Positions 10,208 to 50,057 of a DNA stretch of 64,000 nt are shown here, one piece after another (positions within the stretch are counted from its first letter, which is position 1; each line of letters opens with the position of its first letter). The position numbers and the translations under genes are program-made. The notes under the pieces are model-generated. The model worked only from the letters and a program-made list of their open reading frames with translations, was not told the DNA's origin and ran no database searches. Where the stretch lies: contig NZ_JACHIK010000010.1 in the NCBI RefSeq assembly GCF_014203155.1, positions 62,001-126,000 on the forward strand. Direction: 5' to 3'. The DNA comes from Shinella fusca (lineage in GTDB: Bacteria > Pseudomonadota > Alphaproteobacteria > Rhizobiales > Rhizobiaceae).

Positions 10208-13200
10208 TTGCAGAACAGGACTTTCAATCCGCCGCATCCGGCCAGGGGGCCGCGTCTTCGGCATGTGCAGGCGCTTCTGGCCGGGGCCTCGATGCTGGCG
10301 CTTGGCCTTCCGGCCTCGGCCGACACGGTGGAACTGGAGAACGGCGAGGTCGAAACCGGCGCGATCTCGCAGCCGGGCAACACCACCTTCCTCGTCAAGG
10401 AAGGAGCGGGGGCGACCATGGCGGGGACGATCTCGGGAACGGGGTCGGTTTCCAAGACCGGTCCGGGTACGTTGACGATCACGGGGGAAAATTCCTATTT
10501 CGGCGGCACGGACATCGCCGGCGGCTATGTGTGGTTGACGCATGGCAGCGGTCTCGGCACCGGAACCGTCACGTTCAACGGCGGCGGCCTCGGCTTCCTG
10601 GGGCCTGACGCGCTGTCCATGTCCAACGACATGGTGTTCAACAATGCCACCGTCCTCTACACGATGCAGGACACGACATTGTCGGGCGTGCTTTCCGGCG
10701 GGTCGCTTTTCAAGAAATTCGGCGAAAAGACGTTGACGCTGACGGGCGAGAACACCTTCACGGGCGGTCTTCTCATCCACGAGGGAACCGTGCGGGCGGA
10801 AAACGGCAAGGCGCTCGGCTCCGGCACGATCACCTTCGACAGCGGGACGCTCGGGATCTACACGCCCGCCCTGACGACGCTTTCCAACGACATGGCGTTC
10901 AACGGCAATGCCACGCTCGATACCGCGCAGCACACGACGATCTCCGGCACCCTGTCGGGCGCGGGCGGCCTGACGAAGACCGGCGGGGGGACGCTGACCC
11001 TTTCGGCGGACAACAGCGCGTTTTCGGGCGGCCTGACGGTGCGCAGCGGAACCGTTCGTGCCGAGAACGACCATGCGCTCGGCACGGGAGTGTTGAGCAT
11101 CGGCCGGTTCGGATACTCGTCGGCACTGTCCTATGCGGATGGTGTCACGGTCGACAATGACGTCCTGATAACCGGGAATACGGATTTTCACGTCGCGGCG
11201 GGCACGGCGACGCAGTCGGGCCGGATCGACCAGGCCAGCGGAATGCACTTCCTGGCAAAGACCGGTGCCGGAGAGCTCGTCGTCACCAGTGCCATCGACG
11301 CCGGATATCAGTTCAGGGTCAACGAGGGCCAACTGACGGCCGCGGTCGAGGACGTCCTTGCCGGCCGCAGCTACGCCATCTTCGGTGCGGGAACCTTGAA
11401 GCTCGAAGCGGACCAGCAGGTCGCTACAGTCACCAGCGCAGGCAAGCTCGATCTCGGTTCCCGCAAGCTGACGCTCGGCACGGACGCACAAGTCGGGGCC
11501 GATTTCAGCGGGAAACTCGTCGGAGATGACGACGCGCATCTGGTGAAGGTGGGCAGAAACAGCCAGACGCTCAATGGCGACGGCCTCGACTATTATGGCC
11601 GGATCACCGTGGAAGCGGGGAACCTCTCCGTCGGCGGCAATTTCGCCGGCGCGCCCGTTCTCGTCACCGGCGGCCGCCTCAGCGGGGCCGGCCAGCTCGG
11701 CGACGTCACGGTGGACGGCGGCATCCTGGCGGGCAAGGACGGCGGCACGCTGTCCATGCGGGACCTCTACCTTACGGGCAACGCGATCGTCGAGGCCAAC
11801 CTCGGCACGGAGAACAGCGCGGCGCTCTTCGACGTCGCCGGCGACCTCGTGCTGGACGGCACGCTGAACGTGAACAACATGGGCGGCTTCGGCCCGGGCC
11901 TCTACCGCCTGATCAGCTATGCGGGCGCGCTCGACGACCGGGGCCTTGAGATCGGCACCGCGCCGATGGGCTACGATGCCGACAATCTCGCCGTGCAGAC
12001 GTCAATGGCGGGGCAGGTCAACCTCGTCGCGGACGATCCCGACTACGGCCCCGTGATGTTCTGGGATGGCGACGATCCGGCGAACCGGGACAACGGCAAG
12101 ATCGATGGCGGCGACGGCCAGTGGAGCAAGTACGGCTATTCCTTCACCGATGCATACGGCATGCAGAACGGCAAGATGGATCCGCAGCCCGGCTTCGCCG
12201 TGTTCGGCGGCAAGGCCGGCAACGTCGTCGTCTATACGGGCATCGGTGAGGTGAAGGCGACCGGCATGCAGTTCGCCACCGACGGCTATGTCATCTCGGG
12301 CGAACTGCTCGAGCTGGTGGCCGGCGATGCGTTCATCCGCGTCGGCGACGGCACGGCAGCCGGAGCGAGTTATACGGCGACCATCGCCAACAAGCTCGAC
12401 GGCGCGGGCAAGCTGATCAAGACTGACCTCGGCAAGCTCATCCTCACGGGCGACAGCGCCTATCGCGGCGGCACCGAGGTGCGCGAGGGGACGCTCCAGA
12501 TCGGCGACGAGGGTAACGAGGGCTCGATCGCCGGCCTGCTGGACGTTGGGGCCGACGGCCGCCTGACCGGCCTCGGCATGCTGGAGCAGGTCGTCGTTTC
12601 AGGCACGATCGCGCCGGGCCTGTCGATCGGCACGCTTCATGTCGCGGACATCGCCTTCAACGAAGGCTCGGTTTTCGAGGTCGAGGTGAATGCGGACGGG
12701 GAATCGGACCGTATCCTCGCCTCCGGCGTGGCAACGCTCGACGGCGGCACGGTGATGGCGCTTGGGGGCACGGGCAACTACGCCGCCGCCACCCGCTACA
12801 CCATCCTTTCCGCAGACGGCGGCTTTGCGAGCGAGGACGACCGTTTCGACGGCGTGACTTCGAACCTTGCCTTCCTCACGCCGGACCTCGAATACGACGA
12901 GAACAACGTCTACCTGACGATGACCCGCAACGGCGTCGCCTTCGAGAATGTCGGCAACACGCGCAACCAGGTCGCGACGGCCGGGGCGGTGGAAAGCCTC
13001 GGCGCGGGCAATGCGGTTTACGATGCGGCCCTCGGCCTTTCCTCGGATCAGGCGCGCGGCGCCTTCGACCGGCTCTCGGGCGAGATCCACGCTTCGGCCA
13101 AGGCCGCGCGGATCGAGGACAGCCGCTTCCTGCGCAATGCCGTCAACGACCGCCTGCGGGCGGCCTTCGACGCCGCGGGCGCTCCGGCCGGCATGGTCGT

Positions 13201-14071
13201 CACCTATGACGACGGCAGGCCGGGCGCGGCGGCGGCGAGCACGGACGGCTTTGCGCTCTGGAGCCAGGGTTTCGGCGCCTGGGATCACACCGGCGGCGAC
13301 GGCAATGCCGCGCGCCTGAACCGTTCGACCGGCGGCTTTTTCGCCGGTGCCGATGCGTCGGTGTTCGACAATTGGCGCTTCGGCGCGGTGGCCGGCTACA
13401 GCCATAGCAGCTTCGAGGTGAAGGACCGTGGTTCGTCCGGATCGAGCGACAACTACCATTTCGGCCTTTATGGCGGCGCGCAATGGGGCGAGTTCGCCTT
13501 GCGCACGGGCGGCGCCTATACGTGGCACGACATCTCGACCAGCCGCAGCGTCGCCTTCGCCGGCTTCACCGATAGCCTGAAGGCCGACTACGATGCCGGC
13601 ACGGGGCAGGTCTTCGGCGAGCTGGCCTATGGCTTCGGGATGGGCGAGGCCCGCTTCGAGCCCTTCGCGAACCTTGCCTATGTGAACCTGCATACGGACG
13701 GCTTTGCCGAAAAGGGTGGCGCGGCCGCCCTGAAGGCCGGCGCGTCCAGCACCGACATGGCCTTCACGACGCTCGGCCTGCGGGCTTCGACGAATGTCGA
13801 CCTCGACGGCACGACGGTCACCGCCAGGGGCATGGTCGGCTGGCGGCACGGCTTCGGCAACATGACGCCGACCTCGCGGATGCGCTTCGCCGGTGCCGGC
13901 GACGCCTTTACCGTCGCCGGCGTGCCGGTCGCCCGCAACGTCGCCGTCGTGGAAGCCGGCCTCGACGTCGCGCTGACGCCGGACGCCGATTTCGGCGTCT
14001 CCTATGGCGCGCAGTTCGGCTCGGGCGCCGTCGACCAGTCGCTGAAGGCCAATCTCAACATCAGGTTCTGA
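10208..14071 (+). CDS. Autotransporter (type Va) with PATR repeats and C-terminal barrel
   Basis: A 1287-aa classical autotransporter. Residues 1 to about 38 form a long signal peptide ending PASA. The passenger (about 39-1010) is a beta-helix with several passenger-associated repeats: near 75-105 'GSVSKTGPGTLTITGENSYF', then near 180, 255 and 745 with the same 'L.KTG.G.L.L.G.N.F.GG' pattern. The last 270 residues are the outer-membrane barrel, ending in 'LKANLNIRF' with a terminal Phe as expected for BAM recognition. The TTG start at 10208 follows GGGAG. It exports an extended surface stalk, probably for adhesion or aggregation; the function is inferred from fold only. Confidence 0.9.
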   Translation: MQNRTFNPPHPARGPRLRHVQALLAGASMLALGLPASADTVELENGEVETGAISQPGNTTFLVKEGAGATMAGTISGTGSVSKTGPGTLTITGENSYFGGTDIAGGYVWLTHGSGLGTGTVTFNGGGLGFLGPDALSMSNDMVFNNATVLYTMQDTTLSGVLSGGSLFKKFGEKTLTLTGENTFTGGLLIHEGTVRAENGKALGSGTITFDSGTLGIYTPALTTLSNDMAFNGNATLDTAQHTTISGTLSGAGGLTKTGGGTLTLSADNSAFSGGLTVRSGTVRAENDHALGTGVLSIGRFGYSSALSYADGVTVDNDVLITGNTDFHVAAGTATQSGRIDQASGMHFLAKTGAGELVVTSAIDAGYQFRVNEGQLTAAVEDVLAGRSYAIFGAGTLKLEADQQVATVTSAGKLDLGSRKLTLGTDAQVGADFSGKLVGDDDAHLVKVGRNSQTLNGDGLDYYGRITVEAGNLSVGGNFAGAPVLVTGGRLSGAGQLGDVTVDGGILAGKDGGTLSMRDLYLTGNAIVEANLGTENSAALFDVAGDLVLDGTLNVNNMGGFGPGLYRLISYAGALDDRGLEIGTAPMGYDADNLAVQTSMAGQVNLVADDPDYGPVMFWDGDDPANRDNGKIDGGDGQWSKYGYSFTDAYGMQNGKMDPQPGFAVFGGKAGNVVVYTGIGEVKATGMQFATDGYVISGELLELVAGDAFIRVGDGTAAGASYTATIANKLDGAGKLIKTDLGKLILTGDSAYRGGTEVREGTLQIGDEGNEGSIAGLLDVGADGRLTGLGMLEQVVVSGTIAPGLSIGTLHVADIAFNEGSVFEVEVNADGESDRILASGVATLDGGTVMALGGTGNYAAATRYTILSADGGFASEDDRFDGVTSNLAFLTPDLEYDENNVYLTMTRNGVAFENVGNTRNQVATAGAVESLGAGNAVYDAALGLSSDQARGAFDRLSGEIHASAKAARIEDSRFLRNAVNDRLRAAFDAAGAPAGMVVTYDDGRPGAAAASTDGFALWSQGFGAWDHTGGDGNAARLNRSTGGFFAGADASVFDNWRFGAVAGYSHSSFEVKDRGSSGSSDNYHFGLYGGAQWGEFALRTGGAYTWHDISTSRSVAFAGFTDSLKADYDAGTGQVFGELAYGFGMGEARFEPFANLAYVNLHTDGFAEKGGAAALKAGASSTDMAFTTLGLRASTNVDLDGTTVTARGMVGWRHGFGNMTPTSRMRFAGAGDAFTVAGVPVARNVAVVEAGLDVALTPDADFGVSYGAQFGSGAVDQSLKANLNIRF

Positions 14072-14114: not shown

Positions 14115-14615
14115 ATGAACTTCGACATTTCCAACGAGGCAACCACATCGGGGAGGAGCGATGCCGCCGCTTCGACGGTCTGGTTCGGCTATCTGGCCAG
14201 AACGGTGCTTACCTTCATGTTCTGGTCGAGCGCGCTCGCAAAGCTCGGCGATGCCGAGGCCGCCCTTGCCGAGATGCGGCATTTCGGGCTCGAGCCGGGC
14301 TTCTTCTACTATTTCCTCACCGTCATCACCCTGCTCATCGGCTCGCTGCTGGTGATCCTCGATAAAGGGACATGGCTGGGGGCGGGCGCCCTTGCCGTCT
14401 TTACTCTCCTGACCATCCCCATCGCCCACGATTTCTGGGCGATGGAAGAACCGCGGAAGACGGCGGAATTCCATGTCGCGATGGAGCACATCACCGTGGT
14501 CGGGGGCCTGCTCGTGGCCGTCCATGCATCGGCGGCGCTCAGGAGGCGGTCCGGCGGCGGCCCGGATACCCGGCTGTTCGAGATCGCATCGCGCAAAGGG
14601 TGGCCCGGACCATGA
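14115..14615 (+). CDS. DoxX-family membrane protein
   Basis: A 166-aa inner-membrane protein with four hydrophobic segments in the DoxX pattern: 'RTVLTFMFWSSALAKLGD' in the first helix region, 'FFYYFLTVITLLIGSLLVIL', 'GAGALAVFTLLTIPIAHDFW' and 'HITVVGGLLVAVHASA'. DoxX proteins are small and poorly understood; some work with sulfur or redox partners. The next gene starts inside its stop (ATGA), so it is translationally coupled to a lipoprotein. It starts 43 bases after the autotransporter and could be on the same transcript. Confidence 0.8.
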   Translation: MNFDISNEATTSGRSDAAASTVWFGYLARTVLTFMFWSSALAKLGDAEAALAEMRHFGLEPGFFYYFLTVITLLIGSLLVILDKGTWLGAGALAVFTLLTIPIAHDFWAMEEPRKTAEFHVAMEHITVVGGLLVAVHASAALRRRSGGGPDTRLFEIASRKGWPGP

Positions 14616-15085: not shown

Positions 15086-15526
15086 TCACCAACTGACGTA
15101 GAACATCGCCTTCGCCAGGAAGACGATCAGGCATATCTGGCAGAAGACGCTGAGGTGGATGAACTTGAAGTGCCTCGATCTCAGCTTGCCGCGCGCGCTC
15201 AGCGTGATGGCGGTGATGAAGTGCGCAAGGACGCTGAGGGCGAGCAGGATCTTCAGCGAGAGAAGCGTGGCGAAGCTGCTGGCGAAGGGATGGGCGAGGT
15301 CGTCGCGGTACTGCCAGGCCATGAGGATGCCGGCGCAATAGAGGACCGCGATGACGAACGGCATCAGGCGGCGGGCCCGCCGGCCGATTGCCGTCTCCAC
15401 GGTCCGCATGGCCTCGCGCCCCACGGGCTTGCGGATGCCTTCGAGAATGAGGACTTCGAAGAAGACGGTGCCGCCGAACGTGATGGCGGCGAAGAGATGC
15501 AGCGTGACGAGGGCGAAATGGCTCAT
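15086..15526 (-). CDS. CopD-like four-helix membrane protein
   Basis: A 146-aa integral membrane protein with four predicted helices. The first reads 'VTLHLFAAITFGGTVFFEVL', resembling the CopD/copper-export fold. Histidines sit in helix positions (LHLFAA, AHFITA, KFIHLSVF), which in this fold could bind heme or copper; this is not shown by sequence alone. It starts 13 bases after the ilvD stop on the same strand, so it is almost certainly cotranscribed with ilvD and shares its control by the NsrR-type operator. An alternative upstream start at 15556 would overlap ilvD. Confidence 0.7.
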   Translation of the reverse strand: MSHFALVTLHLFAAITFGGTVFFEVLILEGIRKPVGREAMRTVETAIGRRARRLMPFVIAVLYCAGILMAWQYRDDLAHPFASSFATLLSLKILLALSVLAHFITAITLSARGKLRSRHFKFIHLSVFCQICLIVFLAKAMFYVSW

Positions 15527-15539
15527 GGGCGTGGGTTCC

Positions 15540-17213
15540 CTATCCGGTGACCGCACCTTCGTCGGCCGGCCGGGCGAGGGCGGCGAACTTGGCGAGCACG
15601 CCGCGGCGATAGCGCGGCTCCGGCTGGATCCAGGCGGCGCGGCGGCGGGCGATCTCCTCTTCCGCCACTTCGAGCTGGAGCAGCCGCCGGTGCGCGTCGA
15701 TTGTCACGGTGTCGCCTTCCTCGACGAGGGCGATCGTGCCGCCGACATAGGCTTCCGGCGCGACATGGCCGACGACCATGCCCCAGGTGCCGCCGGAGAA
15801 CCGGCCGTCGGTGATGAGGCCGACGCTCTCGCCGAGCCCCCTGCCGACCAGCGCTGCGGTCGGCGCCAGCATTTCCGGCATGCCCGGCCCGCCCTTGGGG
15901 CCGAGATAGCGCAGCACCACCACGTCGCCGGGCCGGATGCGGTCGGCAAGGATCGCCTCCATGGCGGAGGCCTCGTCGTCGAAGACCCGCGCCGGGCCCG
16001 AGATGACGGGGCTCTTGAGGCCGGTGATCTTGGCGACCGCGCCCTTTTCGGCAAGGTTGCCCTTGAGGATGGCAAGATGGCCCTCGCGATAGAGCGGCCG
16101 GGTCATCGGCATGATGACGCCCTGATCGGCGCGGGGTTCGGAGGGCACGCCGGCAAGCTCCTCGGCGAGCGTGCGGCCGGTGATCGTCAGGCAGTCGCCG
16201 TGGAGAAGCCCGGCATCGAGCAGGATCTTCAGCACCTGCGGCACGCCGCCGGCCGCATGCAGGTCCACCGCCATGTAGCGGCCGGACGGTTTCAGGTCGC
16301 ACAAGACCGGCACCTTGCGGCGCACCCGCTCGAAATCGTCGAGCGTCCAGTCGATCTCCGCCGCATGGGCGATGGCGAGATAGTGCAGCACCGCATTGGT
16401 CGAGCCGCCGAGCGCCATGATCAGCGCCACCGCGTTCTCGATCGACTGGCGCGTGACGATGTCGCGCGGGCGGATGTTGCGCTTGACCGCCTCCACGAGG
16501 ACGCGGCCGGACTGCGCGGCGCTGTCGAGCTTCTCGCGGTCGGGGCTCGCCATGGTCGAGGAATAAAGGAGCGACATGCCGAGCGCCTCGAAGGAGGAGC
16601 TCATCGTGTTGGCGGTGTACATGCCGCCGCACGAGCCGGTCGTGGGGCAGGCGTTCCGCTCGATCCCCTCGAAGTCCTCCTCGCTCATCGTGCCGGCCAT
16701 GAAGGCGCCGACCGCCTCGAAGGCCGAGACGATGGAAAGGTCCTCGCCCTTCCAGCGGCCGGGCTTGATGGTGCCGCCGTAGACGTAGATGGCGGGCGCG
16801 TTGGCGCGCAGGATGCCGATCATGCCGCCCGGCATGTTCTTGTCGCAGCCGCCGAGCACCAGCACGCCGTCCATCCACTGGCCCTGCACCGAGGTCTCCA
16901 CGCAATCGGCGATCACCTCGCGCGAGACGAGCGAGTATTTCATGCCCTCCGTGCCCATCGACATGCCGTCGGAGATCGTCGGCGTGCCGAAGGTCTGCGG
17001 ATTAGCGCCCGCTTCCTTGATGGCCTGCGCGGCGGCATCGGCGAGCGGCTGGAGGCCGGCATTGCAGGGGGTGATAGTGGAATGGCCGTTAGCGATGCCG
17101 ATCATCGGCTTGTCGAAATCCGCCTTCTCGTAGCCGAGCGCGTAATACATCGCCCGGTTGGGGGAGCGGGCGATGCCTTGCGTGATGTGCCTGGAGCGTT
17201 CGTTGAAGGGCAT
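15540..17213 (-). CDS. ilvD: Dihydroxy-acid dehydratase, short (probable [2Fe-2S]) form
   Basis: IlvD dehydrates 2,3-dihydroxy-isovalerate and -methylvalerate in valine, leucine and isoleucine synthesis. The three cluster cysteines are Cys50 (TPCNAG), Cys123 (GGCDKNMPG) and Cys195 ([10 protein letters not shown]). The C-terminal [16 protein letters not shown] motif is intact. At 557 aa it matches the shorter plant/actinobacterial class, known for an oxygen-tolerant [2Fe-2S] cluster. Proteobacterial housekeeping IlvD is usually about 610-616 aa with a labile [4Fe-4S] cluster. It diverges from an NsrR-like repressor with a shared operator, which suggests a stress isozyme; a second genomic ilvD cannot be checked here. 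Confidence 0.93.
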
Positions 17214-17265
17214 GGAAACCTCGCAGGAAGACGGCGGCGTCGCACCGCCTTGTCATTTCGGCATA

Positions 17266-17288
17266 AAGATATATTTTAAATACATGTA
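17266..17288. promoter_or_regulatory. Probable NsrR operator between ilvD and nsrR
   Basis: The site reads AAGATATATTT (17266-17276), one T, then AAATACATGTA (17278-17288). The known NsrR site is an 11-1-11 inverted repeat of AAGATGYATTT and its complement. The left half matches at 10 of 11 positions and the right half at 9 of 11. It sits in a conspicuously AT-rich patch, 52 bp from the ilvD start and 50 bp from the nsrR start, well placed to repress both directions. AATACATGTATT (17279-17290) is also a perfect palindrome inside it. Confidence 0.65.
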
Positions 17289-17338
17289 TTCCTCTGTTTT
17301 CAGGAATGCAATGGCGAAAGATCAGGAGAACCCGCCGG

Positions 17339-17767
17339 ATGCGATTGACCAACTTTTCCGACTATGCGCTGCGGGTGCTGATGTTCGCGGCCGAGCGGGG
17401 CGACCGGCTGATCACCATCGAGGAGACCGCCACGCTGCACGGGATCTCGCGCGCGCATCTGATGAAGATCGCCAACCAGCTCACCCGCACGGGCTTCCTG
17501 AAGGCGGTTCGCGGCCGGTCCGGCGGGCTGACGCTCGCGAAGGCCCCCGAAGAGATCAATCTCGGCGACGTGCTGCGCGTGACGGAACTGGACTTCACGC
17601 TGGTGGAGTGCTTTGCCGCCGACGGCCGCTGCATGCTGATGCCGCGCTGCCGCCTGCGCGGCGTCCTGCACGAGGCGTTCGCCGCGTTCAGCCACACCGT
17701 CGAGCGCTATACGCTGGCAGATCTCATCTCGAATCCGATGGAGCTGGGCGCCCAGCCGGCCGCGTGA
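17339..17767 (+). CDS. nsrR: Rrf2-family nitric-oxide-sensing repressor, NsrR-like
   Basis: A 142-aa Rrf2 regulator: winged helix (residues 1-80), including 'VRGRSGGLTLAKAPEEINLGDV', then a cysteine cluster Cys91, Cys98, Cys104 for an iron-sulfur cluster. Asp8 in 'NFSDYA' corresponds to the unusual Asp ligand reported for Streptomyces NsrR and is absent from RirA, the other rhizobial Rrf2 iron regulator. NsrR loses DNA binding when NO destroys its cluster. The ATG at 17339 follows AGGAGA; 11 upstream codons are in frame but Arg-rich. Probable targets are ilvD and itself through the operator at 17266-17288. Confidence 0.82.
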   Translation: MRLTNFSDYALRVLMFAAERGDRLITIEETATLHGISRAHLMKIANQLTRTGFLKAVRGRSGGLTLAKAPEEINLGDVLRVTELDFTLVECFAADGRCMLMPRCRLRGVLHEAFAAFSHTVERYTLADLISNPMELGAQPAA

Positions 17768-41374: not shown

Positions 41375-41431
41375 CGACGGACCGCCGCGAACATTCCAAT
41401 GTCCCGCCACGACTTGCGGGAATACCCTGGA

Positions 41432-43591
41432 ATGAAATTCATCGGCTTCGTCCTTCTGCTCTGCGCCAGCCTGTGCTGCGCGGTATCTGCCAGCGCGCGC
41501 ACCGTATTGCAGGATTACCTGCCGTCCGCGGTCGCCTCAGATTTCGTCCCCGGCGCGGAGGGCTTCGGCCCGATCCGCGAGGACCTCGCGGTGGCGCCGG
41601 TCCTGAAGGGCGGCGAGACGGTGGCCTGGGTCTTCGTCACCTCCGATTTCGTCGGCACGACGGGCTATTCCGGCAAGCCCATCCACACCCTCGTGGCGGT
41701 GGGCAAGGATGCCAAGATCATCGGCGTGCGGCTCGTCAAGCACTCCGAGCCCATCGTCCTCATCGGCATTCCCGAAGCCAAGGTGAAGGCGCTGGTCGCC
41801 GGCTATGCCGGCCTCGACCTTGCCGCCGAGGCGAAATCCGGTGGCACGGCACATGAGGTGGACATCATCTCCGGCGCGACGGTGACGGTGATGGTGATCG
41901 ACGATTCCATCGTCCGCTCGGGATTGAAGGTCGCGCGTGCGCTCGGCCTTGGCGGCCTCGCCCCGGAAAAGGACGGGGAGGGCCCGCGCTTCACGGTCAA
42001 TCCCGACGCTGCCGCGCCCGCCGACTGGATCGAGGCCGAGGGCGACGGCACGCTGCGCCGGCTCTCGCTCGACGTGGCGCAGGTCAACAAGGCCTTCGCC
42101 GACCATCCGGACGCGCGCGCCCGCGACAGGGCGCTCACCGAGGCGCCGGATGCGACCTTCATCGACATGCAGGCGGCGCTCGTCTCCGTTCCCGCCATCG
42201 GCAAGGCCCTGCTCGGTCCGGCCGAGGAGGCGAACCTCAAGGGCTGGCTGAAAGAGGGCGAGAACGCCATCGCCGTGATGGGCCGCGGTCTCTATTCCTT
42301 CAAGGGCTCGGGCTATGTGCGCGGCGGCATCTTCGACCGCATCGTGCTGATCCAGGACGATGTCTCCGTGCGCTTCCGCGATCGCGATCACCGCCGCCTC
42401 GGCGCCATCGCGCTTGCCGGCGCGCCGGACTTCTCCGAGGCGGACCTGTTCCGCATTCCCGCCAATGTCGGCTTCGACCCGGCAAAGCCCTTCCGCATCC
42501 AGCTTCTTGCGCATCGCGAGGTCGGGCCAATCGAGAAGGTCTTCCACACCTTCGACCTCGCCTACCAGCTGCCGCAGAAATACCTCACCGCGGTCGCCCC
42601 GCCGGCCAAGGAGGTCGCCGTCGCCACCGAGCGCACCGAGGGCAGCGCGCAGGCCGAACTCTGGAAGCGCATCTGGCAGGACTCCAGGCTGAAGATCGCG
42701 GTGCTGGGCGCCATGCTGGTGGTGCTGACGGGGGCGTTCTTCTTCCAGACCTATGTCGTCCGCAATGCACGCGGCTTCTATATCTTCCGCATCGCCTTCC
42801 TCACGGTCACGCTGGTCTTCCTCGGCTGGTACGCCAATGCGCAGCTTTCCGTCGTCAACCTGATGGCGCTCTTCGGCAGCCTGGTGAACGGCTTCAGCTG
42901 GCAGGCCTTCCTGCTCGATCCGCTGACCTTCATCCTGTGGTTCGCCGTCGCCGCCGCGCTGCTCTTCTGGGGGCGGGGCGCCTATTGCGGCTGGCTGTGC
43001 CCCTTCGGCGCCCTGCAGGAGCTGACGAACCAGATCGCGCGCAAGCTGCATATCCCGCAATGGACGCTGCCCTGGGGCTTGCACGAGCGGCTCTGGCCGA
43101 TCAAGTACATGGTCTTCCTCGGCCTGTTCGGCGTCTCGCTGGTCAGCGTGGAGCAGGCCGAGCACCTCGCCGAGATCGAGCCCTTCAAGACGGCGATCAT
43201 CCTGAAGTTCATCCGCGCCTGGCCGTTCGTTGCCTATGCCGTGGCGCTGCTGGTCGCCGGGCTCTTCGTCGAGCGGTTCTACTGCCGCTACCTCTGCCCG
43301 CTCGGCGCGGCGCTGGCGATCCCGGCACGCATCCGCATGTTCGACTGGCTGAAGCGCTACCACGAATGCGGGAACCCCTGCCAGACCTGCGCCAACCAGT
43401 GTCCGGTGCAGGCGATCCACAAGACCGGCGAGATCAACCCGAACGAATGCATCAACTGCCTGCATTGCCAGGTGCTCTACCAGTCCGAAACCGTCTGCCC
43501 CGTCGTGATCAAGAAGATGAAGTCGCGCGCCAAGCTCGCGGCAAGTCCCGGCGGCGCTCCGGCCCATCCACAACCAACCGCCAAGGTTTAA
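41432..43591 (+). CDS. nosR: Nitrous oxide reductase expression/electron-supply protein
   Basis: NosR, 719 aa from ATG 41432 (an ATG at 41399 lies before the expected transcription start). A signal-like segment precedes a periplasmic FMN-binding domain with the flavin-attachment motif 'SGATVTV'. Several transmembrane helices then carry the CX3CP motifs 'CGWLCPFGA' and 'CRYLCPLGA'. The C-terminal cytoplasmic ferredoxin-like part has two four-Cys clusters in '[13 protein letters not shown]' and 'CINCLHCQ'. NosR passes quinol electrons to and supports maturation of NosZ. It heads the nosRZDFYLX operon. Confidence 0.96.
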
Positions 43592-43607
43592 CCACAAGGA
43601 GCCATCC

Positions 43608-45536
43608 ATGGAATCGAAGGAAAACAAGGGGCTGAGCCGCCGAGCGCTGTTCAGCGCCACCGCCGGCACGGCCGTTCTCGCCGGCACGATGGGGCCTGCC
43701 GCCCTCGGCCTCGGTGCCGCCGGCCTTGCCACCCCGGCCCGTGCCGCCAGCGGCGCCGACGGCTCGGTCGCACCGGGCAAGCTCGACGACTACTACGGCT
43801 TCTGGTCTTCCGGCCAGAGCGGCGAGATGCGCATTCTCGGCATCCCCTCGATGCGCGAGCTGATGCGCGTGCCGGTGTTCAACCGCTGCTCGGCCACCGG
43901 CTGGGGCCAGACCAATGAATCGATCCGCATCCACCAGCGCACGATGTCGGAGAAGACGAAGAAGCAGCTTGCCGCCAACGGCAAGAAGATCCACGACAAC
44001 GGCGACCTGCACCACGTCCACATGTCCTTCACCGAGGGCAAGTACGACGGCCGCTACCTCTTCATGAACGACAAGGCCAACACGCGCGTCGCCCGCGTGC
44101 GCTGCGACGTGATGAAGACCGATGCAATCCTCGAGATCCCGAACGCCAAGGGCATCCACGGCCTGCGCCCGCAGAAGTGGCCGCGCTCGAACTACGTCTT
44201 CTGCAACGGCGAGGACGAAGCGCCGCTCGTCAACGACGGCTCGACCATGACGGACGTGTCGACCTACGTGAACATCTTCACCGCGGTCGATGCCGACAAG
44301 TGGGAAGTCGCCTGGCAGGTTCAGGTCTCGGGCAACCTCGACAACTGCGATGCCGACTACGAGGGCAAGTGGGCCTTCTCGACCTCCTACAACTCGGAAA
44401 TGGGCATGTCGCTGGAGGAGATGACCAAGTCCGAGATGGACCACGTCGTCGTCTTCAACCTCGCCGAGATCGAGAAGGCGATTGCCGCCGGGAAGTACGA
44501 GGAGATCAACGGCGTCAAGGTGCTCGACGGGCGCAAGGAGGCCAAGTCCCTCTTCACCCGCTACATCCCCGTCGCCAACAACCCGCACGGCTGCAACATG
44601 GCGCCGGACAGGAAGCACCTGTGCGTCGCCGGCAAGCTCTCGCCGACGGTCACGGTGCTCGACGTGACGAAGTTCGACGCGATCTTCTACGAGAACGCCG
44701 AACCGCGCAGCGCCGTCGTCGCCGAACCGGAACTCGGCCTCGGCCCGCTCCACACCGCCTTCGACGGGCGGGGCAACGCCTATACCTCGCTCTTCCTCGA
44801 CAGCCAGGTGGTCAAGTGGAACATCGAGGAGGCCATCCGCGCCTATGCCGGCGAGAAGATCGATCCGATCAAGGACAAGCTCGACGTCCAGTACCAGCCG
44901 GGCCACCTGAAGATCGTTATGGGCGAGACGCTGGATGCGGCCAACGACTGGCTGGTGTGCCTGTGCAAGTTCTCCAAGGACCGCTTCCTCAATGTCGGCC
45001 CCCTGAAGCCGGAGAACGACCAGCTCATCGACATTTCCGGCGACAAGATGAAGCTGGTGCACGACGGCCCGACCTTCGCCGAGCCGCACGACGCCATCGC
45101 CGTCGCGCCGTCGATCCTGCCGAACATCAAGTCGGTCTGGGATCGCCAGGACAAGCACTGGGCCGAGACGCGCAAGCAGGCCGAGGCCGACGGCGTCAAC
45201 ATCGACGAGTGGACCGACGCCGTCATCCGCGACGGCAACAAGGTGCGCGTCTACATGACCTCCGTCGCGCCGAGCTTCAGCCAGGAGAGCTTCACGGTGA
45301 AGGAAGGCGACGAGGTCACGGTGATCGTCACCAACCTCGACGAGATCGACGACCTGACGCACGGCTTCACCATGGGCAACCATGGCGTGGCCATGGAGGT
45401 CGGGCCGCAGATGACGAGCTCCGTCACCTTCGTCGCGGCCAATGCGGGCGTTTACTGGTACTATTGCCAGTGGTTCTGCCATGCCCTGCACATGGAAATG
45501 CGCGGGCGCATGTTCGTGGAACCGAAGGACGCCTGA
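43608..45536 (+). CDS. nosZ: Nitrous oxide reductase, clade I
   Basis: The 642-aa periplasmic enzyme reduces N2O to N2, the last step of denitrification. The twin-arginine signal '[18 protein letters not shown]' marks clade I and Tat export of folded protein. The N-terminal seven-bladed propeller binds CuZ through seven His residues ('LHHVHMSF' among them). The C-terminal cupredoxin holds CuA: Cys620, Trp622, Cys624, His628 and Met631 in '[12 protein letters not shown]'. It begins 16 bases after nosR. Length and motifs are complete, so the enzyme should be functional. Confidence 0.98.
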
Positions 45537-45539
45537 GCC

Positions 45540-46868
45540 ATGCGCCTGCCCGTCCTCCTCATCGGCCTTCTTCTCGCCTCGCCGCTTGCCGCGGCGGAGC
45601 GTGTGGTCGCGCCCGGGGCGGGCAGCCTCGCTATCGCCATCGCCGCGGCCGCCCCCGGCGATGTGCTGACGCTATCCGGCGGGACCTATGCCGGCCCCGT
45701 CGTCATCGACCGGCCGCTCACCATCACCGGCCCGCGCGGGGCCGTGGTCGACGGGCTCGGCAAGGGCAGCGTGATGACGATCGCCGCGCCGGACGTGCGG
45801 CTTTCCGGCTTCACCGTCACCGGCTCCGGCCGCATCAACGAGGACCTCGACGCCGGCGTGAAGATCGTCAAGGGCGCCGACCGCGCCCGCATCGAAAAGC
45901 TGCTCGTTACCGGCAACATGCACGGCATCGACGTGCACGGCGGGCGCGATGCCGCCGTCATAGCAAACGAGATCGTCGGCACGCGCGACGCCCGCATGAA
46001 CGAGCGCGGCAACGGCATCTATGTGTGGAACAGCCCCGGCACGCTGCTGGAAGGTAACCTCATCCGCTACGGCCGCGACGGCATCTTCTCCAATGCCAGC
46101 TCGAACAGCATCTATCGCGGCAACGTGATGCGCGACCTGCGTTTCGCCGTGCATTTCATGTACACGCGCAATACCGAGGTTTCCGGCAATGTCTCCGTCG
46201 GCAACCATCTCGGCTTCGCCATCATGTTCTCCGACCGCACGAAGATCCGGGGCAATCTCAGCCTCGGCGACCGCGAGCACGGGCTGATGCTCAACTATGC
46301 CAACAATGCCAACGTCACCGGCAACCTCGTGCGCGGCGGCACAAAGAAATGCCTCTTCATCTACAATGCCCACAAGAACCTCATCTGGAACAACCGCTTC
46401 GAGGGCTGCGGCATCGGCATCCATTTCACCGCCGGCTCCGAGAAGAACGTGCTCACCGGCAACGCCTTCATCGCCAACCGCGAACAGGTGAAATATGTCG
46501 GCACGCGCAACATGGAATGGAGCCATGAGGGCAGGGGCAATTTCTGGTCCGATCACCCGGCCTTCGACCTCAACGGCGACGGCATCGCCGACAGTTTCTA
46601 CCGCCCCAACGACCTGATGGACCAGATCCTCTGGTCGCAGCCGGCGGCAAGCCTCCTCATCGGCTCGCCCGCCGTGCAGCTCGTGCGCTGGAGCCAGCGG
46701 GACTTTCCCGCCACGCTCCCCGGCGGCGTGCGCGACAGCGCACCGCTGATGCGCCCCCTTGCCATATCCGTCCCGCCCGAAATCCTCGGCTACGAAGCCG
46801 AGGCCGCCGGCCGCTGGGCCGAAGGAAATAACGATGACACCGACACTGACGATCTCGCGGCTCACTAA
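45540..46868 (+). CDS. nosD: Copper-cluster maturation protein, periplasmic beta-helix
   Basis: A 442-aa protein with an N-terminal signal peptide (to about residue 20, 'LASPLAAAE'). It then has a right-handed parallel beta-helix (CASH domain) seen as repeated 'GN.....G...' turns such as 'GNMHGIDVHGG', 'GNLIRYGRDGIF' and 'GNLSLGDREHGLML'. NosD works with the NosFY ABC transporter to build the CuZ site of NosZ. It starts three bases after nosZ and its end overlaps nosF by 35 bases, so the genes are tightly coupled. Confidence 0.95.
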   Translation: MRLPVLLIGLLLASPLAAAERVVAPGAGSLAIAIAAAAPGDVLTLSGGTYAGPVVIDRPLTITGPRGAVVDGLGKGSVMTIAAPDVRLSGFTVTGSGRINEDLDAGVKIVKGADRARIEKLLVTGNMHGIDVHGGRDAAVIANEIVGTRDARMNERGNGIYVWNSPGTLLEGNLIRYGRDGIFSNASSNSIYRGNVMRDLRFAVHFMYTRNTEVSGNVSVGNHLGFAIMFSDRTKIRGNLSLGDREHGLMLNYANNANVTGNLVRGGTKKCLFIYNAHKNLIWNNRFEGCGIGIHFTAGSEKNVLTGNAFIANREQVKYVGTRNMEWSHEGRGNFWSDHPAFDLNGDGIADSFYRPNDLMDQILWSQPAASLLIGSPAVQLVRWSQRDFPATLPGGVRDSAPLMRPLAISVPPEILGYEAEAAGRWAEGNNDDTDTDDLAAH

Positions 46869-47733
46869 GCGCTTCGGCGCGGTGGAGGCGCTGAAGGCGG
46901 TCTCGCTCGCGCTGGAGCCGGGAAAGCGCGCGGCCCTGCTCGGCCATAACGGCGCGGGCAAGTCGACGATGATGAAGATCGTCCTCGGCCTCATTCCCTT
47001 CGACAGCGGCGAGGTTTCCGTTTGCGGCCTGCGCCCCGGCTCGCCCGCCGCGCGGGTCGAGGTTGCTTACCTGCCGGAAAACGTCGCCTTCCACCCGGCG
47101 CTGACGGGCGAAGAGCAACTTCGCTATTATCTGGCATTGCGCGGCGAGAGCCCGCGCCAGGCCATGGACCTTCTTGCGCGCGTCGGCCTTGCCCATGCCG
47201 CGCGGCGGCGGATCGGCACCTATTCCAAGGGCATGCGTCAGCGCGTGGGCCTTGCCCAGACGCTGATCGGCAAGCCGCGCCTCCTCGTGCTCGACGAGCC
47301 GACCTCCGGCCTCGACCCGGTCTCCCGGCGCGATTTCTACGATCTCCTCGACGGCCTTGCCGCCGAGGGGACGGCGATCCTCCTCTCCTCCCATGTGCTG
47401 ACGGAAGTCGAGGCGCGCACCGACAGCATCCTCATCCTGTCCGGCGGCGTGCTGGTGGCCGAGGGCACGCTTGCCGACCTGCGCGCCCGCGCCGCGCTGC
47501 CGGTCGCCTTCTCCGTCCGCCCCGCGCCCGGCCACGCTCCGGTGCTGGCGGCGGCCTTTCCGGAAGCCGCCCTGGGTGAGGACGGGGTCCTGCGCCTTTC
47601 CTGCGCGCAGAAGGACAAGCTGCCGCTCCTTGCCCGTATCGCCTCCCATGGCGCGGCGGTCGCCGATATCGACGTGATCCCGCCGAGCCTCGAGGACATC
47701 TACAGCCATTTCAGCCGGAGGGACGGGCAATGA
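46834..47733 (+). CDS. nosF: ABC transporter ATPase for NosZ copper-site maturation
   Basis: A 299-aa ATPase with Walker A GHNGAGKST, a signature-loop variant 'YSKGMRQRVGLAQ' and Walker B 'LLVLDEPTSGLDP'. The 'SKGM' form instead of SGGQ is common in NosF and related CcmA-like ATPases. The start at 46834 follows GAAGGAAAT and lies within the end of nosD. With the membrane partner NosY and periplasmic NosD it supplies sulfur and assembles CuZ in NosZ. Confidence 0.95.
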   Translation: MTPTLTISRLTKRFGAVEALKAVSLALEPGKRAALLGHNGAGKSTMMKIVLGLIPFDSGEVSVCGLRPGSPAARVEVAYLPENVAFHPALTGEEQLRYYLALRGESPRQAMDLLARVGLAHAARRRIGTYSKGMRQRVGLAQTLIGKPRLLVLDEPTSGLDPVSRRDFYDLLDGLAAEGTAILLSSHVLTEVEARTDSILILSGGVLVAEGTLADLRARAALPVAFSVRPAPGHAPVLAAAFPEAALGEDGVLRLSCAQKDKLPLLARIASHGAAVADIDVIPPSLEDIYSHFSRRDGQ

Positions 47734-48554
47734 CGAGCCGCATCCTCGCCACCGCGCTCTCGGAATTCCGTATCGCCTTCCGCAACCGCTGGGTCGCCAT
47801 CGCCACCGGCATGATGGTGCTGTTCGCGCTGGTGCTTGCCGCCGCCGGCGCCGCCCCGACCGGCGATGTCGGCGTCGACCGGCTCTCGGTGACCGTCGCC
47901 TCGCTGACGTCGCTTGCCGTCTATCTCGTGCCGCTGCTCGCGCTGCTGATGAGCTTCGATGCGGTGGCGGGCGAGGTGGAGCGCGGCACGCTGCCGCTGC
48001 TGCTCACCTATCCCGTCTCGCGCCTCGAAATCCTCATCGGCAAGCTCGCCGCGCATCTCGCCATTCTCGGCCTTGCGGCCTGCCTCGGCTACGGCGCGGC
48101 GGCGCTGGTGGCGGTATGGGCCGATCCGGCCGCGATCAAGGGGCTCGGCGCGCTCTGGCGGCTGATCTGGTCCTCGGTGCTGCTGGGGGCGACCTTCCTC
48201 GGCGCGGGCTATGCGCTCTCGGCGCTCTCGCGCCGGCCCTCCGGCGCGGCGGGGCTTGCCATCGCTCTCTGGCTCGCCGCTGTGGTGCTCTACGATCTCG
48301 CCCTGCTGGCGCTTATCGTCAGCGACGGCGGCGGGGCCTTCACCACCGGGGCGCTGCCCGTCGCCCTCCTCGCCAACCCGGCCGATGCCTTCCGCGTCTT
48401 CAATCTCTCTGCTGCCGAGGCGGTCGCGGCTGCCGGCGGCATCGGCGGGGCGGCCGGGGCGATCCCGCTCTGGCAATCGGCCGCCTCGCTCTTCCTCTGG
48501 CCGCTCGCCGCCCTCGCGCTCGCCGTTGCCGCCTTCCGCAAGGTGACGCCATGA
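47730..48554 (+). CDS. nosY: ABC transporter permease for NosZ maturation
   Basis: A 274-aa inner-membrane protein with six predicted helices, typical of ABC-2-type permeases. The segment 'ALLMSFDAVAGEVERGTLPLLLTYPVSRLEILIGKL' is diagnostic of NosY-like permeases. It overlaps nosF and nosL by four bases on each side. It forms the NosF2Y2 transporter core whose periplasmic partner is NosD. Confidence 0.95.
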   Translation: MTSRILATALSEFRIAFRNRWVAIATGMMVLFALVLAAAGAAPTGDVGVDRLSVTVASLTSLAVYLVPLLALLMSFDAVAGEVERGTLPLLLTYPVSRLEILIGKLAAHLAILGLAACLGYGAAALVAVWADPAAIKGLGALWRLIWSSVLLGATFLGAGYALSALSRRPSGAAGLAIALWLAAVVLYDLALLALIVSDGGGAFTTGALPVALLANPADAFRVFNLSAAEAVAAAGGIGGAAGAIPLWQSAASLFLWPLAALALAVAAFRKVTP

Positions 48555-49135
48555 GAAGCCGCCTTCGCCCCGTGCTGCTCCTTGCCGCCCTCGCGCTGCT
48601 GTCCGCCTGCAAGGAGGATGTGGCGCAGAATATCGTGCCGCAGGAGATGACGCCGGAAACCCTCGGCCACTATTGCCAGATGAACCTCCTGGAGCATCCC
48701 GGCCCCAAGGCGCAGGTCTTCCTCGAAGGCAATGCCGCACCGCTGTTCTTCAGCCAGGTGCGCGACGCCATCGCCTATATGCGCGGGCCCGAGCAGGTCG
48801 CGCCGATCCTCGCCGTCTATGTCAACGACATGGGCGCGGCCGGGGCGACCTGGGACCAGCCCGGCAAGGGCAACTGGATCGCCGCGGACGCCGCCTTCTA
48901 TGTCGTCGGCTCCGACAGGCGCGGCGGCATGGGCGCGCCGGAGACCGCGCCCTTCTCCAGCCGGGAAAAGGCCGAGGCCTTCGCCCGTGCGGAGGGCGGC
49001 CGCGTGCTGGCGCTCGCCGAGATCACCGATGCCATGGTGCTGACGCCGGTGGAGACCGGCGCGGACGACCAGAAGGAGGGCGACGAGGACTACCTCGACC
49101 GCCTGCGCACCCTGCCACAAAAAGACGGAGATTGA
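48551..49135 (+). CDS. nosL: Copper chaperone lipoprotein of the nos system
   Basis: A 194-aa lipoprotein with lipobox 'LLSACKED', so the lipidated Cys is at about residue 20. The copper-binding segment 'GHYCQMNLLEHPGPKAQVF' carries the Cys-x-Met pair found in NosL. The acidic C-terminal tail 'GADDQKEGDEDYLDRL' is also normal. It delivers Cu(I) to the NosDFY complex for the CuZ and CuA sites. ATG at 48551 overlaps the nosY stop. Confidence 0.94.
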   Translation: MRSRLRPVLLLAALALLSACKEDVAQNIVPQEMTPETLGHYCQMNLLEHPGPKAQVFLEGNAAPLFFSQVRDAIAYMRGPEQVAPILAVYVNDMGAAGATWDQPGKGNWIAADAAFYVVGSDRRGGMGAPETAPFSSREKAEAFARAEGGRVLALAEITDAMVLTPVETGADDQKEGDEDYLDRLRTLPQKDGD

Positions 49136-49139
49136 TCCC

Positions 49140-50057
49140 ATGATGCTGACCCGCCGCCGCCTGATCGCGATTTCCGCCGCTCTCGCCGTCCTGCCCGCCG
49201 CCGCCCGCGCCGGCACGGGGACCGCGCATCTGTGGACCGGGCAGGCGCTCGGCGCGCGCGCCTCGATCCGCATCGACCACCCGGACGGCGCGGCCATCGC
49301 CGCCCGCGTCATGGCCGAGATCGACCGGCTGGAAAACATCCTCAGCCTCTATCGCCCGAATAGCACCCTCTCGCGGCTGAACGCCGAAGGGCATCTTGCC
49401 GAACCGCCCTTCGAGCTTCTCGAATGCCTGTCGCTGGCCGGCGCGGTGCATGCGGCAAGCGCCGGCCGGTTCGACCCGACCGTGCAGCCGTTCTGGGCGC
49501 TCTGGGCGGAAGCGGCGGTCCGCGGCGAGCGGCCGTCGGAAAAGGCCGTCAAGGCCGTGCTGAAAAAGACCGGCTGGCAGAAGGTGGCGCTCGACGCCGG
49601 CGCAGTCACCCTCCGGCCCGGCATGGCGCTCACCCTCAACGGGATCGGCCAGGGCTATGTCGCCGACAGGGTCGCCACGCTGCTGGAGGCCGAGGGCCTC
49701 ACCGATATCCTGATCGACACCGGCGAGTTCCGCGCCCTCGGTGGTGAGCCGCGGGGCGGCGACTGGCCGGTGCGGCTGGAGACCGGCGAGCGCGTGGCGC
49801 TGCGCCAGCGCGCGCTTGCCACCTCCGCCCCGCTCGGCACGACCTTCGACCAGGCCGGACATGACGGCCATATCATCGATCCTGCGACGGGAATGCCGGC
49901 GCCCGCGAAATGGCGGGCGATTTCCATCTCCGCCCCCTCGGCGGCAATCGCCGACGCCCTGGCGACGGCCGCCTGCCTCATGCCGGATACCGGCACGATC
50001 CTCGCCATGCTCGACCGCTTTGACGGCGCGCGCCTTGAAGCCGGAACGGCGGCCTGA
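49140..50057 (+). CDS. nosX: Periplasmic FAD:protein FMN transferase of the nos system
   Basis: An ApbE-family protein of 305 aa that attaches FMN to NosR through a phosphoester bond. A twin-arginine-like N-terminus 'TRRRLIAISAALAVLPAAARA' directs it to the periplasm. Family motifs are 'EIDRLENILSLYRPNSTLSRLN', 'FDPTVQPF', 'LNGIGQGYVAD' and the C-terminal 'HIIDPATGMPA' with the metal-binding region. It is the last nos gene and begins four bases after nosL. Its flavin substrate site is the SGAT motif of NosR in the same operon. Confidence 0.94.
   Translation: MMLTRRRLIAISAALAVLPAAARAGTGTAHLWTGQALGARASIRIDHPDGAAIAARVMAEIDRLENILSLYRPNSTLSRLNAEGHLAEPPFELLECLSLAGAVHAASAGRFDPTVQPFWALWAEAAVRGERPSEKAVKAVLKKTGWQKVALDAGAVTLRPGMALTLNGIGQGYVADRVATLLEAEGLTDILIDTGEFRALGGEPRGGDWPVRLETGERVALRQRALATSAPLGTTFDQAGHDGHIIDPATGMPAPAKWRAISISAPSAAIADALATAACLMPDTGTILAMLDRFDGARLEAGTAA

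Follow-up and report, generated by a model that had tools for sequence, protein, structure and literature searches.

Organization of the ilvD locus

The window, i.e., the whole 64,000-nucleotide stretch of Shinella fusca DNA analysed here, belongs to an assembly of 39 contigs with a total length of 4.85 Mb. A gene for a dihydroxy-acid dehydratase (DHAD), ilvD, and a repressor gene, nsrR, are divergent, with start codons 125 bp apart, and a gene for a CopD-like protein lies behind ilvD after 13 nt. The features are:

15086–15526 (likely start 15526), minus strand: gene for a CopD-like small membrane protein; match to PF05425 below cut-off
15540–17213, minus strand: ilvD, encoding a 557-residue DHAD; NCBIfam models above cut-off, nearest solved structure 6nte
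17250–17277, plus strand: promoter-like match pointing to nsrR, from a consensus scan; overlaps the palindrome
17266–17288, no strand: NsrR-type palindrome between the divergent ilvD and nsrR genes (125-bp gap), from pattern scans
17339–17767 (alternative start 17306), plus strand: gene for an NsrR-type Rrf2 repressor; Rrf2 superfamily model above cut-off
41399–50057, plus strand: nos gene cluster, genes read by eye; context only, outside the ilvD unit

The sequence-only reading that preceded this work had placed an NsrR-like repressor with Asp8 and three cysteines divergent from ilvD, which is borne out by the gene layout and by alignment. It had also named a nitrous oxide reductase in the same genome, and nosZ is indeed present in the nos cluster (43608–45536), 26 kb from ilvD, with a product scoring 1088.7 bits (cut-off 625). 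Upstream of the ilvD locus, an autotransporter-like gene (1287 aa; 10208–14071) is followed by a gene of the DoxX family (14115–14615).

Two DHAD classes in one genome

The window DHAD passes both TIGR00110 (747.1; cut-off 618.15) and NF002068 (843.5; cut-off 644), and 6nte, at 822 bits, is the solved structure closest to it. The catalytic serine and the magnesium ligands are kept in the aligned columns (D82, the CDK starting at C123, E447, and S473), and the cysteine columns are occupied by C50, C123, and C195. The motif GCDKNM, which marks branched-chain DHADs (PMC9314677), is present as GGCDKNM. An identity as sugar-acid dehydratase was considered and is ruled out by the IlvD equivalog score together with this motif.

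A second DHAD in the same genome has 611 residues, carries Gly in the column of C50 of the window enzyme, and reaches 1175 bits with the E. coli-type equivalog, in agreement with an earlier prediction of a second ilvD product of about 612 residues. In PMC9543379, the class mark is given as alignment position 48, the first ligand column, with Cys in [2Fe-2S] and Gly in [4Fe-4S] DHADs. By these published cysteine criteria, the sequences assign the window DHAD to the [2Fe-2S] class and the 611-residue enzyme to the [4Fe-4S] class. The [2Fe-2S] assignment had originally been made from the length of 557 residues; the cysteine columns (C50) agree with it, and were used instead because length alone is a weak class marker. 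Four further PF00920 proteins are encoded in the genome, one Edd (L006) and three of sugar-acid types as judged by eye and alignment. Against three relatives in the genus, dN/dS for the window ilvD is 0.07–0.09, as estimated from sequence a sign of purifying selection.

The repressor

The window repressor scores above the cut-off of the Rrf2 superfamily model, and below those of the NsrR equivalog NF008240 (117.3; cut-off 182) and the RirA equivalog NF008886 (120.9; cut-off 193). Five relatives of the repressor score 112.8–133.2 with NF008240, likewise under 182, so that this model appears narrow for the group; given its own score, the protein is here called NsrR-type and not a certified NsrR. 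Asp8 and the three cysteines align with those of Streptomyces NsrR (5n07), where we take them to be the Fe-S cluster ligands. In the tree, L015 and L016 are nearest to the window repressor, and no strongly supported small group contains it. Both L015 and L016 adjoin DUF2478-like and globin-like genes, the latter read by eye and without a Pfam match, and an NnrS-like gene lies in the neighbourhood of L015 (L066). By sequence, the window repressor groups with NsrR-type proteins the genes of which have DUF2478 and globin-like genes as neighbours, joined at one locus by an NnrS-like gene.

Iron control by RirA is ruled out, since the genome has its own RirA (L007; 285.9 bits, cut-off 193) with Asn8, and the window repressor carries Asp8. 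An Asp8-like residue is also found in the product of a second Rrf2 gene (L009:1486–1932), which is located directly before a gene read as ccoN, with napF nearby (111.7 bits; cut-off 102.2).

The palindrome and a second box in the genome

The repeat at 17266–17288 reads AAGATATATTT-T-AAATACATGTA, with arms agreeing at 8/11 positions (full palindrome, AAGATATATTTTAAATACATGTA). The 17-letter pattern ATRYATTTNAAATRYAT, based on the NsrR consensus and made wide enough to include this site, occurs once in the window when up to 3 mismatches are allowed, and this occurrence is exact (shuffles, 0.14). Genome-wide it has one exact place and five places at 2 mismatches, against a first-order expectation of 0.0005 exact matches; the pattern was written after the site was seen, and these counts and the expectation therefore flatter the palindrome. 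A reversed control pattern has no match in the genome. The 11-1-11 repeat resembling the NsrR consensus, noted at the outset between nsrR and ilvD, is accordingly present and is the only exact pattern match in the genome. A second pattern, derived from boxes at the loci of relatives, finds two places in the whole genome at up to 2 mismatches, namely 17266–17288 (1 mismatch) and a site on contig C2.

The latter is a perfect 23-bp NsrR-type palindrome (L068:7899–7921, corresponding to C2:381899–381921 of the window genome, G000). On one side it is flanked by a small gene, presumably yeaR-like, that matches TehB weakly, and then by hutW (430.9 bits; cut-off 400). On the other side, a 72-residue gene is accompanied by one read by eye as FmdE-like and by one for copper nitrite reductase (349 bits; cut-off 296.3). 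From this position at a hutW/nirK cluster, the C2 box is likely a second target of the window repressor, of the usual NsrR kind.

The 72-residue gene of the C2 cluster belongs to a family of small proteins, p72/p105 (72–105 residues), with a motif like YDRCHP..SF..L.RRARFSKEDQGLLKDWL. Copies are found at L061:10584–10901, L245:3470–3718, L068:8135–8353, and near L063:1692. They come after NsrR-type boxes in genomes G156 and G152, and inside the boxed nirK cluster in the window genome. A Pfam search with the G156 copy gave no match, and p72/p105 is possibly an uncharacterised protein of the NO regulon.

At the window locus, an NsrR-type palindrome is thus present at the repressor's own gene. 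The promoter-like site toward nsrR agrees with the consensus at 9/12 letters (1 found; 0.3 in shuffles). The consensus scan of the gap gave no promoter-like match toward ilvD, the start codon of which is 52 bp from the palindrome; for this reason, direct NsrR control of ilvD is something that we infer, plausible from the sequence and limited to the genome of the window.

Relatives of the window DHAD and their neighbours

Short DHADs are found in 5 of 21 genomes of the genus, and in 24/394 genomes of the family at E 1e-180, the window genome counted in both cases. A scan of named genomes gave a best 80 loci among the matches listed, mainly from Burkholderiales. These and two plasmid loci were included in a quick DHAD tree of 112 rows; a more careful tree of 57 rows has 19 new loci from the order and class. 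One clade (support 92/88) unites the window DHAD with nine others. The comparison set consists of 119 other loci, where L193 and L074, as well as L235 and L075, are the same DNA and are each counted once. A LysR gene adjoins ilvD at none of the ten clade loci, compared with 51/119 of the others (P 0.005); clade loci share history and are not independent, which makes the P values of these neighbour comparisons a rough guide only.

Two panels of marker genes were used. The main panel has eleven markers (NnrS, globin, DUF2478, NsrR, nirK, fmdE, p72, hutW, yeaR, nosZ, and nosR), taken either from loci that lack a short ilvD or from the nos cluster, at a distance of 26 kb. Within 3 kb, it matches at 5/10 clade loci, one of which (L173) is only a 36-residue match to p72, compared with 0/119 of the other loci, or 0/96 of those where both flanks are at least 3 kb. 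No strict-panel gene lies within 3 kb at any of the best 80 named loci of the matches listed. The wider panel adds narG, narH, pseudoazurin, DUF2249, and ccoN, picked after the clade loci were seen, and within 10 kb it matches at 7/10 clade loci compared with 3/119 others (ccoN at L140, and distant Rrf2 proteins at L195 and L231). The clade loci with nitrogen-oxide neighbours are:

Window (G000): NsrR-type gene beside ilvD
G156: box starting 12 bp past the ilvD stop, before another operon with p105, DUF2478, and an nsrR gene
G152: DUF2478-like gene 1 kb from ilvD
G152, same contig, 15–20 kb off: perfect palindrome, p105, nsrR gene, and second nirK
G158: divergent NnrS gene (325 bits); p105-like stretch before ilvD; copD after
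G258: narG 4.4 kb from ilvD, then narH
G170: pseudoazurin gene 4.0 kb from ilvD
G030: p72-like stretch; ccoN, NsrR-like gene, and globin-like gene 7–9 kb off

Nitrogen-oxide neighbours are absent at the remaining 3/10 loci, i.e., in G289 (L179), at a second copy in G258 (L180), and in G737 (L226). L226, which also lacks LysR, is the one clade member to have turned up after the pattern had been noticed, in the look at order and class, and this small out-of-sample look is therefore unsupportive and speaks against generality. Taken as counted, nitrogen-oxide genes are commoner in the vicinity of the window DHAD's relatives than near the other short DHADs. The second clade copy of G258 (L180:5287–9252) comes after genes read by eye as phage packaging, a hint of mobility.

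Within the genus, NirK is encoded in 18/21 genomes and NosZ in 15/21, in both cases including all four genomes with a clade DHAD. A second, distinct NirK occurs only in G000, G152, and G156, that is in 3/4 clade genomes compared with 0/17 other genomes of the genus (P 0.003). Its cluster carries a perfect box in G000 and G152, and no box was found around the second nirK of G156. In G156, nosZ and ilvD share a contig, 16 kb apart. The NosZ proteins of the genus fall into two sets, one 90–97% identical to that of the window and the other 62–63% identical (G152, G156, G158, and G164).

The order nsrR–ilvD–copD is found in the window only among the ten clade loci. At 29 Rrf2 loci of other genomes, none has ilvD within about 1.5 kb, with shorter flanks at three of them. 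A box between nsrR and ilvD is likewise restricted to the window among the four clade members of the genus, and the stretches scanned at the other nine clade loci contain no box upstream of ilvD at up to 3 mismatches. The idea of a conserved three-gene module is ruled out by these gene orders, and the module put forward in the sequence-only reading should give way to a wider and looser idea, namely that the short-DHAD clade is often accompanied by nitrogen-oxide genes. As judged from the sequences in hand, the window is the sole case with an NsrR-type box in the ilvD promoter region.

The CopD-like protein had been proposed as a co-induced partner. It scores 21.0 bits with PF05425, below the gathering cut-off of 32.1. 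A copD gene is also located behind ilvD in G152 and G158, and is absent there in G156. Relatives were found in four other genomes of a 297-genome sample, one of them at E 9e-4, with mostly different neighbours, which leaves no steady link and a standing role as NO partner unsupported. In G255, a truncated relative has an FmdE-like gene at a distance of about 400 bp.

A possible role under nitric oxide

In E. coli, IlvD is inactivated by NO (Ren et al. as cited in PMC3963858). PMC6805990 reports it as a crucial growth-stopping target, including when the NO originates from nitrate respiration by the cell itself. In the same study, branched-chain amino acids reverted the growth defect that an nirBD deletion strain shows during nitrate respiration, a defect ascribed to loss of IlvD. 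This raises the question of how denitrifiers keep up branched-chain amino acid synthesis. Judging from sequence and setting, the window DHAD is probably an NO-tolerant backup kept near denitrification genes. More specifically, we give about even chances to an accessory [2Fe-2S] DHAD that sustains synthesis of valine, leucine, and isoleucine under NO from denitrification, and whose gene in this genome has a divergent promoter region in common with an NsrR-type repressor gene. What sequence shows within this reading is the layout of the locus, the presence of two enzyme classes, an NsrR-type lineage for the repressor, the palindrome itself, the association with neighbouring genes, and the purifying selection.

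Without NO, cluster-bearing NsrR would sit on the palindrome, where it would cover the promoter-like site of nsrR and keep both nsrR and ilvD–copD low. NO from denitrification would damage the housekeeping [4Fe-4S] DHAD and also the cluster of NsrR, the DNA would be freed, and nsrR and ilvD–copD would both rise. The cell could then fall back on the [2Fe-2S] DHAD, and synthesis of valine, leucine, and isoleucine would continue. Binding of NsrR, induction of ilvD, better NO tolerance, and any role for the CopD-like protein are the steps that we infer. As to tolerance, PMC9490426 reports that mitoNEET's [2Fe-2S] cluster, in its oxidised form, shows no binding of NO and that the cluster of SoxR is destroyed by it; because of the latter, the predicted NO robustness of the window DHAD is not assured. 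Extended to the whole lineage, the proposal would be that this [2Fe-2S] DHAD is a regular denitrification helper that moves between nitrogen-oxide islands, here under NsrR, and sustains branched-chain synthesis amid self-made NO. We put this forward tentatively, and consider it somewhat less probable than its opposite.

Another arrangement would be that the palindrome serves autoregulation of nsrR only, and that ilvD–copD is a neighbour with its own promoter, encoding a plain second DHAD. The promoter-like match points just to nsrR, the boxes in G156 and G152 precede p105 and nsrR and not ilvD, and ilvD is absent within about 1.5 kb of the 29 Rrf2 loci of other genomes, all of which fit this arrangement. 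However, the ilvD promoter has to lie in the same 125 bp as the box, unless it is located inside nsrR, and clade DHADs often keep nitrogen-oxide neighbours. We regard autoregulation alone as rather unlikely, though a serious contender. Hitch-hiking, in which short ilvD, like the denitrification genes, belongs to the mobile accessory gene pool and ends up in the same islands without a functional tie, would account for the patchy occurrence of the short DHAD in the family, for the non-clade relatives on Ensifer plasmids (the best plasmid matches are four Ensifer records), and for the phage-packaging neighbours of L180. Some of the other short DHADs are equally patchy, but none of the 119 has a panel match within 3 kb, and the neighbours in the clade vary by locus, as expected from repeated association; hitch-hiking is doubtful. 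A role in shifts between anoxic and oxic conditions instead of under NO, with nitrogen-oxide neighbours as mere marks of life style, could draw on the greater oxygen stability described for [2Fe-2S] DHADs (PMC9543379) and on ccoN, a microaerobic oxidase gene, at the G030 locus, but is highly improbable given that the adjoining repressor and box in the window are NsrR-type.

If the helper reading of the lineage is true, it represents a defence against NO that works by replacing the enzyme, as opposed to removing NO or repairing clusters. With a [2Fe-2S] spare beside an NO-sensor-type gene and a [4Fe-4S] DHAD elsewhere in the genome, the question of branched-chain synthesis in denitrifiers becomes testable. 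In the open-licence PMC literature, we found no description of an NsrR-controlled ilvD or an NO-resistant DHAD isozyme, nor of a short-DHAD clade with nitrogen-oxide neighbours.

Comparison with known systems

The branched-chain [2Fe-2S] DHADs of Fontimonas thermophila (6nte), M. tuberculosis (6ovt), and A. thaliana (5ze4) are full-length homologues of the window DHAD, and share with it C50, C123, C195, and GCDKNM. To our knowledge, none of the three is located beside an NO-sensor gene or serves as the second DHAD of a denitrifier. For regulation, the closest likeness is to the NsrR regulons of beta- and gammaproteobacteria (Rodionov 2005, PMC1274295), which have the same Rrf2 repressor type, a palindrome close to gATGyAT-N5-ATrCATc and, as in the window genome, a boxed nirK cluster. 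That study found alphaproteobacterial NsrR only in R. capsulatus E1F1, and the term ilv is absent from it, unlike the nsrR–ilvD pairing of the window. Divergent LysR–ilvD pairs of Burkholderiales and rhizobia contain a homologous short ilvD, but a LysR gene is found beside none of the ten clade members.

The principle of a replacement enzyme has precedents. FumC is a stable spare enzyme for a damaged Fe-S enzyme. E. coli AcnA is a sturdier, stress-expressed isozyme for a damaged Fe-S enzyme (PMC11138216), as proposed here for the window DHAD. With the expression of the window DHAD being a prediction, this case would differ from AcnA and FumC in that it concerns the synthesis of branched-chain amino acids, and NO.
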